64,000 nucleotides of DNA, taken from Leucobacter luti. GTDB lineage: Bacteria; Actinomycetota; Actinomycetes; Actinomycetales; Microbacteriaceae. The stretch spans positions 62,001 through 126,000 of the forward strand of contig NZ_CP080492.1 of the NCBI RefSeq assembly GCF_019464495.1, written 5' to 3'. The position numbers and the translations under genes are program-made. Numbering within the stretch: the first letter of the stretch is position 1; every line of letters starts with the position of its first letter. This document shows positions 20,923-25,362 of the stretch, in pieces. The notes beneath the pieces were generated by a model. The model saw only the letters and a list, made by a program, of their open reading frames with translations, made no database searches and had not been told where the DNA came from.

Positions 20923-21909
20923 GTGCCAGAGCTTCCTGAAGTTGAGGTGGTGCGCGCGGGGCTCGCGCCAGCGGTCACCGGTGCGCGCGTGATTGCCGCT
21001 GAGGTGCGGGATGCGCGCGCACTCAAGCGCCACGCGCTGCTGTCGGGGGATGATGGCCTCGGCGGCCACGGGGTGACGCTGCCGGTGGAAGCCGCCGCTG
21101 AGCGCGCCATCGACTTTGAACGGCGCGTCACCGGGCTGCAGCTCGGAGCGCCCGAGCGGCGAGGCAAGTTCATGTGGGTCCCAGTCGCCCGTAGCGGATC
21201 CACCGCAGGAATTGGGTCTGGCTCAGGCGAAGCGGTGCCCGATGAGCCGTGGGCGTTGCTTGCGCACCTCGGCATGAGCGGGCAGCTGTTGCTGCGGGAC
21301 ACCGCGGCGGAGGACGATCGCCATGTGCGGATCAGGCTCTGGATCGAACACCCGGATCACGGCGAGCTGCGGCTCGATTTCGCGGATCAGCGCCTGTTCG
21401 GCTCGCTCGCCCTCGACCGTCTCACGCCAACTTCCGATGACGGATCGCTCCTCCCGGTGCAGGCCGCACGGATCGCGCGCGATCCGCTCGATCCGCACTT
21501 TGATGATGCGGTGTTCGTGGCGGCGGTGCGATCCCGCAGCTCTGGGATTAAGAAATTGATCCTGGATCAGGCACTGGTCAGTGGCGTCGGCAATATCTAT
21601 GCCGATGAGGCGCTGTGGCGAGCGAGGCTGCACCCCGACACCGCTGGCCGCGCGATCAGCGTGCGCAAGCTCGCGTCACTGCTCGGCGCGCTGCGAGACG
21701 TCTTCGCACAGGCGCTTGCAGAAGGCGGCACGAGCTTCGATGAGCAGTACGTCAACGTGAATGGGCAGGCCGGGTATTTCGCGCACTCGCTCAACGCGTA
21801 CGGTCGCGGGGGAGAGCCCTGTCCGCGCTGCGGTGGCCTCATTAAGCGCGTGCCGTTTGGGGGCCGCTCGTCCCACTTTTGCTCGCGGTGTCAACGCTTG
21901 GCCCGTTAG
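20923..21909 (+). CDS. mutM: Formamidopyrimidine-DNA glycosylase
   Basis: The glycosylase removes 8-oxoguanine and ring-opened purines, with AP lyase activity. It has 328 aa from a GTG giving MPELPEVE, where Pro2 is the nucleophile. The conserved lysine loop is RRGKFMWVPV, and the H2TH region is GVGNIYADEALW. The C-terminal zinc finger has Cys at about 300, 303, 320 and 323. The length is a little above average because of Gly/Ser- and Ala-rich inserts. A second, decayed copy of its 3' end lies at 24490-24650. Confidence 0.95.
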   Translation: MPELPEVEVVRAGLAPAVTGARVIAAEVRDARALKRHALLSGDDGLGGHGVTLPVEAAAERAIDFERRVTGLQLGAPERRGKFMWVPVARSGSTAGIGSGSGEAVPDEPWALLAHLGMSGQLLLRDTAAEDDRHVRIRLWIEHPDHGELRLDFADQRLFGSLALDRLTPTSDDGSLLPVQAARIARDPLDPHFDDAVFVAAVRSRSSGIKKLILDQALVSGVGNIYADEALWRARLHPDTAGRAISVRKLASLLGALRDVFAQALAEGGTSFDEQYVNVNGQAGYFAHSLNAYGRGGEPCPRCGGLIKRVPFGGRSSHFCSRCQRLAR

Positions 21910-22075
21910 TACTATTTTGGGCTGCTCAAGCCACTATTCCAACCTGTCGAATCCGGCGCGGGCTCAAGTTAGATGGATGGTCGAGATAGTGCCTCGCGGG
22001 TGGGTGAGAGCTAGGTGTATGTCGAGTCGCGTTCGATGCCACTGACGCCTACGCCAGCGCCAATCTTGCTTTGCC

Positions 22076-22120
22076 TAGCAACTTAGGTTGACAGCAGAAT
22101 GCTGTCAATGTAGGTTGCTA
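22076..22120. promoter_or_regulatory. 45-bp nested palindrome, candidate operator
   Basis: Symmetric about base 22098: outer arms TAGCAAC (22076-22082) and GTTGCTA (22114-22120), inner arms TTGACAGC (22088-22095) and GCTGTCAA (22101-22108), all spacers 5 bases. It covers the likely -35 and -10 boxes of the HTH gene, so a bound dimer pair would block transcription. Confidence 0.7.
22088..22116 (+). promoter_or_regulatory. Promoter of the HTH/Clp-N operon (leaderless)
   Basis: TTGACA (22088-22093), a 17-base spacer and TAGGTT (22111-22116) make a good sigma-70-type promoter. The expected start point is on or just before the ATG at 22124, so the mRNA is probably leaderless. Confidence 0.6.
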
Positions 22121-22123
22121 AGT

Positions 22124-22369
22124 ATGCAATCCACCCAAGTCGCGAGCGCTGCCGCCGATACCAGTGATCCTCGTTCCGGGCTCAGAGCGGTCGCTTCGCT
22201 ACGCACTCTCACTGAGCGGCTGGAACTCGCTCAGGTGGAGGCCGCGCTTCTGGCTGGCATGAGCTGGCAGGAGATCGCGGACGCCCTCGGCGTTTCTCGT
22301 CAAGCGGCGCACAAGAAGTACGCGAAGAGGATCGACCCGGTCATCCCCGTTCCTAGGAGGAGAACGTGA
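22124..22369 (+). CDS. Small helix-turn-helix protein
   Basis: 81 aa from the ATG at 22124; an in-frame TTG at 22088 lies in the promoter and is rejected. After a polar N-terminus comes an amphipathic helix (RTLTERLELAQVEAALLAG). A clear helix-turn-helix follows, MSWQEIADALGVSRQAAHKKY, and a basic tail. Its stop overlaps the GTG of the next gene, so it is translationally coupled to the Clp-N protein. It is the obvious candidate to bind the nested palindrome over its own promoter. It resembles small HTH proteins encoded beside Clp-N genes in Actinobacteria. Confidence 0.78.
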   Translation: MQSTQVASAAADTSDPRSGLRAVASLRTLTERLELAQVEAALLAGMSWQEIADALGVSRQAAHKKYAKRIDPVIPVPRRRT

Positions 22370-23358
22370 GTAAGTTCACTGCCGCCGCCAGTACCTCGCA
22401 TACCCTTTCGCTTGCCGCCATGGAGGAGGCCTCGCGCGCCGGTCAGCGCACTGCCGATATCGATCATCTGCTGATCGCTCTCGTGCTGAACGAGCAGATT
22501 GCGGGTCAGGTGCTGCGCAGTTTTGGCATCACGCTCGATACTGCACGTGAGGCGGTGGCGGAACAGCATGCCGACCACCTCGCGGCTCTGGGCATTCAAC
22601 TGACATCGCCTGGGTCGGGCAAGATCGTGTTTCATGAGACGAACGGGTACGAATGGAGTGAACGCGCACTCGGCGTTTTCAAGCGCGCGAGTGAGACCGG
22701 GAAGTGCGGCGACGCGTCAGCCGTGCTTCGTGAACTCGTCTCGGAATCTAGTGGCATGATCGAGGCCGTTCTGAAACGGCTTGGAGCCACCCCGGAGGCA
22801 GTCACCGAGAAGCTGGACGAGGCACATCGCTATCCTGTCCACCAGCCACAGCGCTTTGTTCGCGCTGATGCGCTTTCCGGCTCATCTGAAGCGTTCGTCC
22901 CTGCGTCTCCTGAACGGGTCTGGGAACTACTCGACGATCCGTTGCGGATGCCAGAGTGGGAACCAAGCATCGGAAGCGTCGAAGGTGCGCCACTGACGAT
23001 CAAGGCCGGCGAGACCTGGACGGCACTCGCCCGCACCGAGCGGCCCGACGGTAAACCGATTCCGATGAAGCCCGGCTTCGTCACGCAGCAAGTTGAACTC
23101 GTCGCACATGAAGAACCGAGATTTATCGAGTGGCGCTTCACCTACCCGGACGCACCGCAGGCGAACGCACGCCGCATCAGGGTCGAGCTCGAGTATGCAG
23201 CCGGTGGCACACAGCTCCGCCTCGCCCTCGCCTGGGAACGCAACCCGAACCGCCCCCGCCGCCCGTTCCTGGGCTTCGTGATGCGCCCCGTCTTCCGGTT
23301 CGTGCTCTGGATGCAGCTCTCACAACTCGGAAGCGGCATTAGCCGCACGTTCCGCTAA
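22366..23358 (+). CDS. Clp N-terminal repeat domain fused to an SRPBCC domain
   Basis: 330 aa from a GTG behind AGGAGG. Residues of about 5-145 match the Clp-N (ClpA/ClpC adaptor-binding) double repeat: HTLSLAAMEEASRAGQRTADIDHLLIAL and, in the second repeat, WSERALGVFKRASETGKCGD. There is no AAA+ domain. Residues from about 170 to the end form an SRPBCC/polyketide-cyclase-like fold (VPASPERVWELLDDPLRMPEWEP, GETWTALART). The protein could present SRPBCC-bound ligands or damaged proteins to a Clp protease, or respond to Clp clients; this is inference. Confidence 0.8.
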   Translation: MSKFTAAASTSHTLSLAAMEEASRAGQRTADIDHLLIALVLNEQIAGQVLRSFGITLDTAREAVAEQHADHLAALGIQLTSPGSGKIVFHETNGYEWSERALGVFKRASETGKCGDASAVLRELVSESSGMIEAVLKRLGATPEAVTEKLDEAHRYPVHQPQRFVRADALSGSSEAFVPASPERVWELLDDPLRMPEWEPSIGSVEGAPLTIKAGETWTALARTERPDGKPIPMKPGFVTQQVELVAHEEPRFIEWRFTYPDAPQANARRIRVELEYAAGGTQLRLALAWERNPNRPRRPFLGFVMRPVFRFVLWMQLSQLGSGISRTFR

Positions 23359-23360
23359 GC

Positions 23361-23603
23361 ATGGAGGACACGATGAGACGTATCGGACGAGTCCTCCTGG
23401 GCCTCGTGATGATTGGCCTGCTGTTCGTATGGCTGTTCTACCGGCAGCACGAGCCGTTCAGCGTATGGGCAACCAGCAGCACACTCGTCGGTTGGGCGTT
23501 CCAAGGAGCAGCTTGGTTGAGCTGCCTCGGTGGTGCCTACCTTATTGCGACCGCCTGGTCAGCGCAGGCTGAGGTCACAGGCGCGGACGCCGACACACAC
23601 TGA
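23361..23603 (+). CDS. Small membrane protein in the Clp-N operon
   Basis: 80 aa (an internal ATG gives 76 aa), starting 2 bases after the Clp-N gene. Two hydrophobic helices are visible (about residues 8-27 and 43-66), with an acidic C-terminal tail. It is probably the third gene of the HTH/Clp-N operon. No family is recognised. Confidence 0.6.
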   Translation: MEDTMRRIGRVLLGLVMIGLLFVWLFYRQHEPFSVWATSSTLVGWAFQGAAWLSCLGGAYLIATAWSAQAEVTGADADTH

Positions 23604-23779
23604 CCGAGGCACCCCCCCACTCGCTGCTGCCCCACACCAACTCTTGCCAGCTGGTCGCTGGTCGAAAGAAGCGTAGCCCGTACCCGCGTGATACCCAGAT
23701 CCAGAGCAGGTCCTTGTGACCCCGAGAGTCGTTCGCAGAGGGCAAACAGCATGCGTGGGTCGACGGCTTCTTCTTCAAC

Positions 23780-23944
23780 TGACGAAACGCTGAAAGGGAG
23801 GAGGAGGAAGGGTATGAAGTTGTTTGTCGAGTGCAGGACGATTGCGAGTTCCAGGCCACGACTCTTCCACGCGAGCGCGCCCAAACAGGTTGCAAACACG
23901 GCGATATCGACCTGACCGGGCCCTCGGCTGCGATGCCCGTCCAG
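23780..23944 (-). pseudogene. CPBP (CAAX-type) intramembrane protease, C-terminal remnant
   Basis: On the minus strand an open frame reads GQVDIAVFATCLGALAWKS, then RGLELAIVLHSTNNFIPFLL. This is the last conserved block of CPBP proteases, including the HxxxN motif. An in-frame stop lies just upstream (23945-23947). The earlier EExxxR and FxxxH blocks are absent, so only the tail of a gene survives. Confidence 0.55.
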
Positions 23945-24328
23945 CTACCGTGGCCTCAACGTCGTTCAAGCCTGCCGGTCACGTCGTCGACTCGTCCAGC
24001 GTCACAGCCGAGGGTGCGGACAGTGGCAGTGGATACCGCGTTGACTTTGTTTCTCCGAATCTAAACCGATTGGCATTAGCCGCTAATATTCGGCAGCGTC
24101 TGAACCTGCGGTAGCGGGTTGTGCTCATTCATTGGACAATCAACTGGTTTTGATCCTGTCGGCACGCGTGGTTCGTCGTCAGTTGGAAAACTGGCCTTGC
24201 GTAGATCGACTTTCCAGCTCCCGCTGCGCGTTGACTGCAGCTTCCTCCTTGCATTCATGTTGGTGGGACAGAGCTTAAAGCCCCTGCGATCGATTGGACA
24301 CGTGGTCGAGCCGTTTTGCGCCTCTTAG

Positions 24329-24370
24329 GGCACCTTATCCAGGCTCAGTGCGCTTCATGAGGTGCCTTTT
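24329..24370 (+). terminator. Weak hairpin with T-run
   Basis: A 7-bp stem (GGCACCT at 24329-24335, AGGTGCC at 24360-24366) with a 24-base loop is followed by TTTT. Confidence 0.3.
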
Positions 24371-24489
24371 GGCATTGAAGACGAAAAGACCCGTCCTGCT
24401 CAATTGATGACCTGACCAAGATGTCTATGGTTCCCTGCCGACTAGGGCTCGCGAATGTCAGTCAATGTGTTTTTCCGCGGCAGTGGGAC

Positions 24490-24650
24490 CACTTCGCGCA
24501 CTCCCTAAATGCGCACGGACGCGGGGGAGGGTCCTGTCCGCACTGCGGTGGTCCTATTCGGCGCGTGCCGTTTGGGGGCGCTCGTCCCTCTTTGGCCCGC
24601 GGTGCCGATCGGTGGTCGCTTCTCGCACTTCTGCCCGCGGTGGCAGCGCA
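24490..24650 (+). pseudogene. Decayed second copy of the mutM 3' end
   Basis: The sequence parallels mutM from 21775 on. One frame reads HFAHSLNAHGRGGGSCPHC, then GGPIRRVPFGG, against YFAHSLNAYGRGGEPCPRC, then GGLIKRVPFGG in the intact gene. After GTGCCGTTTGGGGG the frame breaks. A second, partly repeated segment in another frame gives GGRFSHFCPRWQRR, the final zinc-knuckle region with one Cys replaced by Trp. The copies differ at many bases, so this is not a recent duplication. Confidence 0.75.
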
Positions 24651-24741: not shown

Positions 24742-25362
24742 ATGAATCTTCTGCTGCTCTCGATCAGCCTCGGCGCGGTCCCTGAGTTCCTGAGCGAGTG
24801 CGTGGGAACGCTCACCCGGCAACTCCGTCTTGGCTACATCAGTGATGCGGCTGAGGGCATGCCCTTTGCAGAGCGAGAGCTGCACGGCGTGCGGGATCTG
24901 GGGCACGAGGTGATGGAAATTCGCGCCCGTGATGCAGACGCGCACGCGTTCGCCGCGAAACTGTCAACGTGCGACGCCGTGTACGTTGCGGGAGGAGAGA
25001 CGTTCGTGCTGCTTGAAGCACTGCGGTCCAATGGCACGGGCGAGGTGCTCGCGCAACGTGTGCGTGCGGGCCTGCCCTACATCGGCTGCAGTGCGGGGTC
25101 AGTGATTGCTGGGCCATCGATTACCCCCGTGGAGATGCTTGATGATCGCACCCTTGCCGTGGGACTCACGAGCGATGAGGGTCTCGGGCTGATCGACCGC
25201 GTCATCATCCCGCACGCTGACGGCAAGATTCCGCCTTATCCGATCGCGCTCATTGAGCGCATCATCTCGACGTACGGGGAGCAGTTCCCGCTCCTGACCT
25301 TGAATGATGATCAGGCTCTCCGGGTGGGTCCCACTGGTGCCAGGGTGATTCCCTCGCCCTAA
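24742..25362 (+). CDS. pepE: Type 1 glutamine amidotransferase-like peptidase (dipeptidase E, S51)
   Basis: 206 aa, S51 family serine peptidase that typically hydrolyses Asp-X dipeptides in the cytoplasm. The nucleophile elbow GCSAGSVIAGP has Ser at about 117. VYVAGGETFVLLEAL precedes it, and the His segment DRVIIPHADG follows. Length is close to the 220-230 aa norm. It is a stand-alone gene at the right edge of the gene-poor stretch. Confidence 0.85.
   Translation: MNLLLLSISLGAVPEFLSECVGTLTRQLRLGYISDAAEGMPFAERELHGVRDLGHEVMEIRARDADAHAFAAKLSTCDAVYVAGGETFVLLEALRSNGTGEVLAQRVRAGLPYIGCSAGSVIAGPSITPVEMLDDRTLAVGLTSDEGLGLIDRVIIPHADGKIPPYPIALIERIISTYGEQFPLLTLNDDQALRVGPTGARVIPSP

Follow-up and report, generated by a model that had tools for sequence, protein, structure and literature searches.

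A pair of coupled genes in a 64,000-nucleotide (nt) stretch of the Leucobacter luti genome (contig NZ_CP080492.1, positions 62,001 to 126,000; hereafter the window) probably constitutes a split, two-gene version of a ClpC2-type system, that is, an autorepressed Clp_N sensor and decoy to which a ligand-binding domain has been added. The first gene encodes a small helix-turn-helix (HTH) protein, and the second joins a ClpC-type N-terminal domain to an SRPBCC domain. Operators, HTH gene, fusion gene and a small hydrophobic open reading frame (ORF) follow one another in this order on the plus strand:

22076..22093, plus strand: operator site 1, inverted repeat TAGCAAC-n4-GTTGACA; its right half holds the −35 element TTGACA (22088-22093)
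22103..22120, plus strand: operator site 2, inverted repeat TGTCAAT-n4-GTTGCTA; covers the −10 element TAGGTT (22111-22116)
22124..22369, plus strand: HTH protein of 81 amino acids (aa), presumed repressor, in the family of the ClpC2 N-terminal domain and RelI
22366-23358, plus strand: fusion gene, 330 aa, overlapping the HTH gene by 4 nt
22366..22830, plus strand: Clp_N part of the fusion, residues ~1-155; complete ClpC-type N-domain with two repeats and no ATPase
22858..23358, plus strand: SRPBCC/START part of the fusion, residues ~165-330; predicted fold closest to PYR/PYL among the rows listed
23373..23603, plus strand: small hydrophobic protein; counted from the second ATG, its likely start, it has 76 aa (the preliminary description used 23361); accessory

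A preliminary description of this operon had noted a Clp-N domain without its ATPase, fused to an SRPBCC domain and coupled by overlap to a tiny HTH gene. The predicted folds and the 4-nt overlap confirm that observation; the interpretation built upon it, a candidate undescribed stress system, is partly supported. For ClpC2, a ligand-sensing Clp-N domain, with self-repression that a ligand of ClpC relieves, has already been published (PMC10030653). Because the logic proposed for the operon is so close to published ClpC2 biology, we regard it as a variant of the ClpC2-type system rather than an undescribed one.

A conserved gene pair with Clp_N as the constant partner

The predicted structure of the fusion protein comprises a complete ClpC N-domain, which does resemble Clp-N as had been proposed, followed by an SRPBCC domain. 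The protein belongs both to the two-repeat ClpA/ClpC N-terminal fold (Clp_N, PF02861) and to the SRPBCC / Polyketide_cyc2 helix-grip fold. For the SRPBCC part, the nearest folds among the rows listed were the plant PYR/PYL receptors, and Pfam gave a match to AHSA1 (30.6 bits, cut-off 22.1). Sequence identity to the PYR/PYL/RCAR abscisic acid receptors and other SRPBCC proteins was 7-11% among these rows, and the shared fold does not indicate a ligand. Elsewhere in the host genome (3.41 Mb, one contig), the only Clp_N matches at E ≤ 1e-3 were the two repeats of a single 842-aa ClpC. The nearest named homologue, from Leucobacter luti at 80% identity, points to Leucobacter or a close relative as the host.

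One scan of genome contigs listed at least 77 homologous loci, leaving aside the rows from the host genome (L001-L003). With phmmer, an HTH homologue was found upstream of the fusion in 76 of 77 loci, and it was intact and directly upstream in 75; the HTH gene is broken at L070, and L079 has no upstream HTH. When the fusion start was fixed by the tblastn match, the 75 intact pairs (without L070 and L079) overlapped by 4 nt in 67 cases, 1 nt in three, 8 nt in two and 13 nt in one; the others were a 2-nt gap and one locus kept as unclassified (L080). L070 comes from Arthrobacter sp. APC 3897, where a degraded HTH gene precedes the fusion and operators were not found. Another locus, L060, lies on a contig labeled Vibrio cholerae strain 35D that carries this actinobacterial operon; the contig is almost surely a contaminant, and L060 was retained in the counts.

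Gene neighbors in relatives had been suggested as a check on the operon, and here the answer was divided. When ORFs of at least 80 aa around the 77 loci were clustered, the majority clusters were the HTH protein, the fusion, and minus-strand ORFs lying over both. The next commonest cluster reached 14 of 77 loci; thus the HTH neighbor is non-random and the remaining neighbors are random. The two-helix membrane protein, originally counted as a component, has homologues beside only two of the 77 relatives (L005 and L071), and we rejected it as a core part of the system; it is an accessory protein. At L067, an unrelated-looking small ORF with two segments occupies the same place.

We also surveyed 246 genomes of the class, 171 of which gave a match to the HTH profile. 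Among the 30 best-scoring HTH loci, a non-random sample that includes our own, a local profile found a Clp_N ORF following the HTH gene in 27 (E ≤ 0.01) or 28 (E ≤ 0.1). At L120, Pfam Clp_N matches directly downstream of the HTH gene, and L117 was read by eye. The local SRPBCC profile matched eight of the 30. Thus, in this sample, Clp_N is the constant partner of the HTH protein and SRPBCC a variable addition. In an HTH tree, the SRPBCC-linked rows clustered (3 changes for 43 rows, against a shuffled mean of 28); this tree rests on 59 columns, contains one misread row (L111, branch length 10), and was used for clustering only, not for history. A Clp_N scan of the 246 genomes returned mostly ClpC itself and was set aside.

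Of nine genomes examined from family f22, which were chosen for their HTH matches, eight (L162-L169) hold a ClpC2-like gene as well as a separate pair of HTH and Clp_N genes; a single cell can thus contain two systems of this kind. In L168 and L169, the Clp_N partner has a long, glycine-rich, low-complexity insert between its two Clp_N repeats. ClpC1 is a target of antibiotics, and in mycobacteria ClpC2 blunts the effect of one ClpC1 drug, cyclomarin. Our survey suggests a broader plan among actinobacteria, of which ClpC2 would be one version: an HTH domain and a Clp_N sensor under one kind of tandem operator. The plan is also found split into two genes and, in several families, extended by a ligand-binding domain.

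Tandem operators on a putative leaderless promoter

In the window, the −35 and −10 elements are separated by a 17-nt spacer, and the ATG of the HTH gene follows after another 7 nt; because the start codon lies so close to the −10, the HTH-fusion transcript is probably leaderless. A loose search pattern, used without a shuffled control, matched a −35-like/−10-like pair with a start codon 4-7 nt past the −10 in 72 of the 74 relatives examined (L042, L070 and L079 excluded).

Within 100 nt upstream of the HTH gene, the pattern [GT]CAA[CT]-n4-[GA]TTG[AC] occurs twice in 72 of 76 loci, once in three (L004, L042 and L078) and not at all in one (L070), against a background of nine occurrences in 655,533 nt. 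The contig of L042 ends at the operator region, and at L004 another site can be seen whose sequence deviates from the pattern. In the class-wide set of 30 top-scoring HTH loci, the 150 nt scanned also held at least one n4 operator at 29; at the exception, L111, the start is probably misplaced.

Across the whole genome, the tandem pattern is unique to this operon. A strict single-site pattern had three matches, two of them in the operon itself, compared with four for the reversed-pattern control. A wider regulon was therefore rejected, since strict single sites are no commoner than the control and the tandem occurs only here. For self-repression, which had been proposed from the outset, there are thus signs in the DNA: the operon has tandem operators over its own promoter, and this tandem recurs nowhere else in the genome.

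Relation to ClpC2 and competing explanations

ClpC2 (Rv2667), which occurs in mycobacteria and other actinobacteria, represses its own promoter through CGTCAAC-n5-GTTGACG sites that overlap the −35 and −10 elements, and its transcript is probably leaderless; cyclomarin lifts this repression, and ClpC2 then acts as a sponge (PMC10030653). The L. luti operon likewise has a domain similar to the ClpC1 N-terminal domain without AAA modules, tandem GTCAAC/GTTGAC pseudopalindromes over the −35 and −10 of a putative leaderless promoter, and presumed self-repression, although one half-site in the SRPBCC-linked family reads GCAAC. It differs from ClpC2 in its additional SRPBCC domain. For comparison, we picked 11 small Clp_N genes from class members by frame length, of which ten were ClpC2-like (L151-L159 and L161) and one (L160) had no HTH. 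All ten are preceded by two n5 operator sites with the same half-sites and layout as in our operon. In a profile comparison, the HTH family matched the N-terminal region of the ClpC2-like proteins (probability 95.8, E = 8e-9 for a single comparison), with 32% identity over 47 columns that include the recognition helix.

The ten ClpC2-like proteins carry the HTH motif GASWT.IG..MGV[TS]KQAAQKR, and their recognition helix lies beyond the part of ClpC2 solved in 8ADA. The DNA-binding site of ClpC2 itself may therefore have to be moved from the Clp_N domain to the N-terminal HTH domain. This offers a testable view of ClpC2, an HTH with its recognition helix just past the crystallized fragment, as opposed to the authors' proposal that another domain binds DNA.

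Beyond the folds, the conserved coupled pair, the tandem operators and the HTH kinship, which sequence or structure prediction shows, we envisage the following mechanism. A dimer of the HTH protein would probably occupy each operator and shut the operon's own leaderless promoter. The ClpC N-domain of its translationally coupled partner would see the same kind of ligand as ClpC. This could be a substrate, a damaged protein, an adaptor, or a peptide antibiotic aimed at ClpC; the SRPBCC domain would probably bind a hydrophobic small molecule as a second input. Ligand binding would alter the contact between partner and HTH protein and lift repression, and the accumulating Clp_N protein would then occupy the ligand and spare ClpC.

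Several points weigh against the ClpC2-type explanation. The HTH is not in the same chain as Clp_N but is encoded by a separate upstream gene, so that the predicted contact would have to form between separate chains, and the operator spacer is n4 in the window and the counted relatives (where the pattern required n4) rather than n5. The HTH profile reached only E = 0.13 against 8ADA, a chain that ends at residue 72, before the recognition helix, and the whole fusion matched ClpC2 weakly (probability 38%, 47 columns). Within the genus, the fusion is patchy, with matches below E = 1e-40 in 14 of 36 congeners.

The ligand site also departs from that of ClpC1, in which F2, F80 and E89 have been singled out as critical to cyclomarin. 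Residues were counted in the window plus 76 loci (n = 77), excluding L066, whose contig ends within the locus and has no full fusion ORF. The equivalent of ClpC1 F2, residue 4, is F in 38 and L in 30. The equivalent of F80 is either F89 (62/77) or W97 (68/77), a choice that is not settled, and an aromatic residue is mostly retained. Unlike in ClpC2, the equivalent of E89, position 106, is not conserved (A in 23, K in 16, T in 11). An acidic residue stands at position 33 in 73 of 77, equivalent to E32 of ClpC, a phospho-arginine contact, and its second-repeat equivalent is mostly lost. The cyclomarin contact residues F2, F80 and E89, a feature of ClpC2, are thus kept only in part in the fusion family, and the ClpC-type docking surface is altered. 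The natural ligand therefore need not be cyclomarin. For these reasons (the HTH in another chain, the spacer, and the cyclomarin residues), filing the operon directly under ClpC2 was rejected. From the published side, the ClpC2 authors propose DNA binding by the C-terminal (Clp_N) domain (PMC10030653). Ecumicin and ilamycin are both bound by ClpC2 in M. tuberculosis but do not induce it (PMC12913811), so binding to a Clp_N domain need not lift repression.

Could the fusion instead be a Clp adaptor or substrate trap without sensing, whose Clp_N domain competes for or delivers ClpC substrates, with an Aha1-like SRPBCC domain as chaperone cofactor and the HTH protein only setting the amount? The complete ClpC N-domain and the AHSA1 match would suit such a role, and the ClpC2 authors consider a holdase or substrate-competition function (PMC10030653). 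However, the tandem operators on its own promoter, and the presumed repressor to which the gene is coupled in almost every relative, speak for a system that responds to a signal, and we think the adaptor role unlikely. It is quite improbable that SRPBCC is the sole sensor of a ligand-induced HTH/SRPBCC regulator, with Clp_N only marking the protein for ClpC or docking on it: the PYR/PYL-like fold and the changes at several ClpC contact residues are in its favor, but 22 of the 30 best HTH loci gave no local SRPBCC match whereas 28 have the Clp_N ORF, making Clp_N the constant element. The same counts disfavor a toxin-antitoxin pair with the HTH protein as self-regulating antitoxin and the SRPBCC fusion as toxin. 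Here, the HTH protein is kin to the RelI antitoxin (profile E = 4.6e-6), whose HTH the RelI authors linked to ClpC2 by HHpred, but in the RelS-RelI system (Rv2663-Rv2664) the partner is an RNase toxin, not Clp_N (PMC13284704). The island location and patchiness fit a toxin-antitoxin pair, as does a weak match to the NCBIfam SRPBCC Rv0910-family toxin, yet its 16.5 bits are far under the cut-off of 100 and do not place the operon with Rv0909-Rv0910. Moreover, no RelE-like family was found among the three operon ORFs, mutM and the ORF at 24742-25362, and PADLOC gave no match at E ≤ 1e-3 for the HTH or fusion protein. We consider a toxin-antitoxin pair very unlikely.

A further idea comes from the setting in a mutM hotspot with defense-type genes (described below) and from the patchy presence of the fusion. 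The operon might be a ligand-gated guard of ClpC carried in mobile defense islands. Clp_N would then lure phage proteins, or antibiotics made by competitors, that hit the ClpC N-domain, and the PYR/PYL-like part would supply a second, small-molecule input; engagement of either would lead the HTH protein to free a burst of decoy. We regard this as improbable, and keep to the split ClpC2-type sensor and decoy as the probable explanation.

Searches of the open-access literature gave no match for an SRPBCC/Clp_N fusion or for the pairing of an HTH with a Clp N-terminal domain. The class of mechanism is known; as far as these searches go, its split into two genes, the fusion to SRPBCC and the operator shared across the class are new. 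Mycobacterial ClpC3 is described as a small Clp_N protein that shares the ClpC1 ligand site and is induced when ClpC1 is targeted (mentions in PMC10864484, PMC10914731 and PMC10746685); it is among the proteins most like the fusion, and our guess is that ClpC3 is the HTH-coupled Clp_N gene of L162-L169.

An insertion hotspot at mutM

The operon is flanked by mutM and a peptidase S51 gene and lies within an insert:

20923-21909: mutM
21910..24492, no strand assigned: insert with the operon, bordered by mutM on one side and a decayed copy of its 3' end on the other
24493..24642, plus strand: incomplete, broken copies of the 3' end of mutM (codons ~282-325) that close the insert on its far side
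24742-25362: peptidase S51 gene

The broken copies are 85% identical to the mutM 3' end over 113 nt. Among 54 genomes of the genus, 11 hold a mutM 3' fragment detached from the gene, and in nine of these it is on the mutM contig, 1.4 to 13 kb away (our genome included in both counts). The mutM 3' end is thus an insertion hotspot in Leucobacter (20923-24642 in the window; L204-L211). Several of the inserts in other Leucobacter carry genes of phage-defense type. Of 28 large ORFs listed from the inserts, eight were run against Pfam and five against PADLOC; the products include a type ISP restriction enzyme, a kinase, a SIR2 protein resembling Dsr1, and proteins resembling GmrSD and AbiU. In two inserts (L204 and L206), a serine recombinase adjoins the mutM fragment; a mutM serine-integrase island had no match in the open-access literature. 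In L. chromiireducens (L004), the operon also lies beside mutM, in the opposite orientation.
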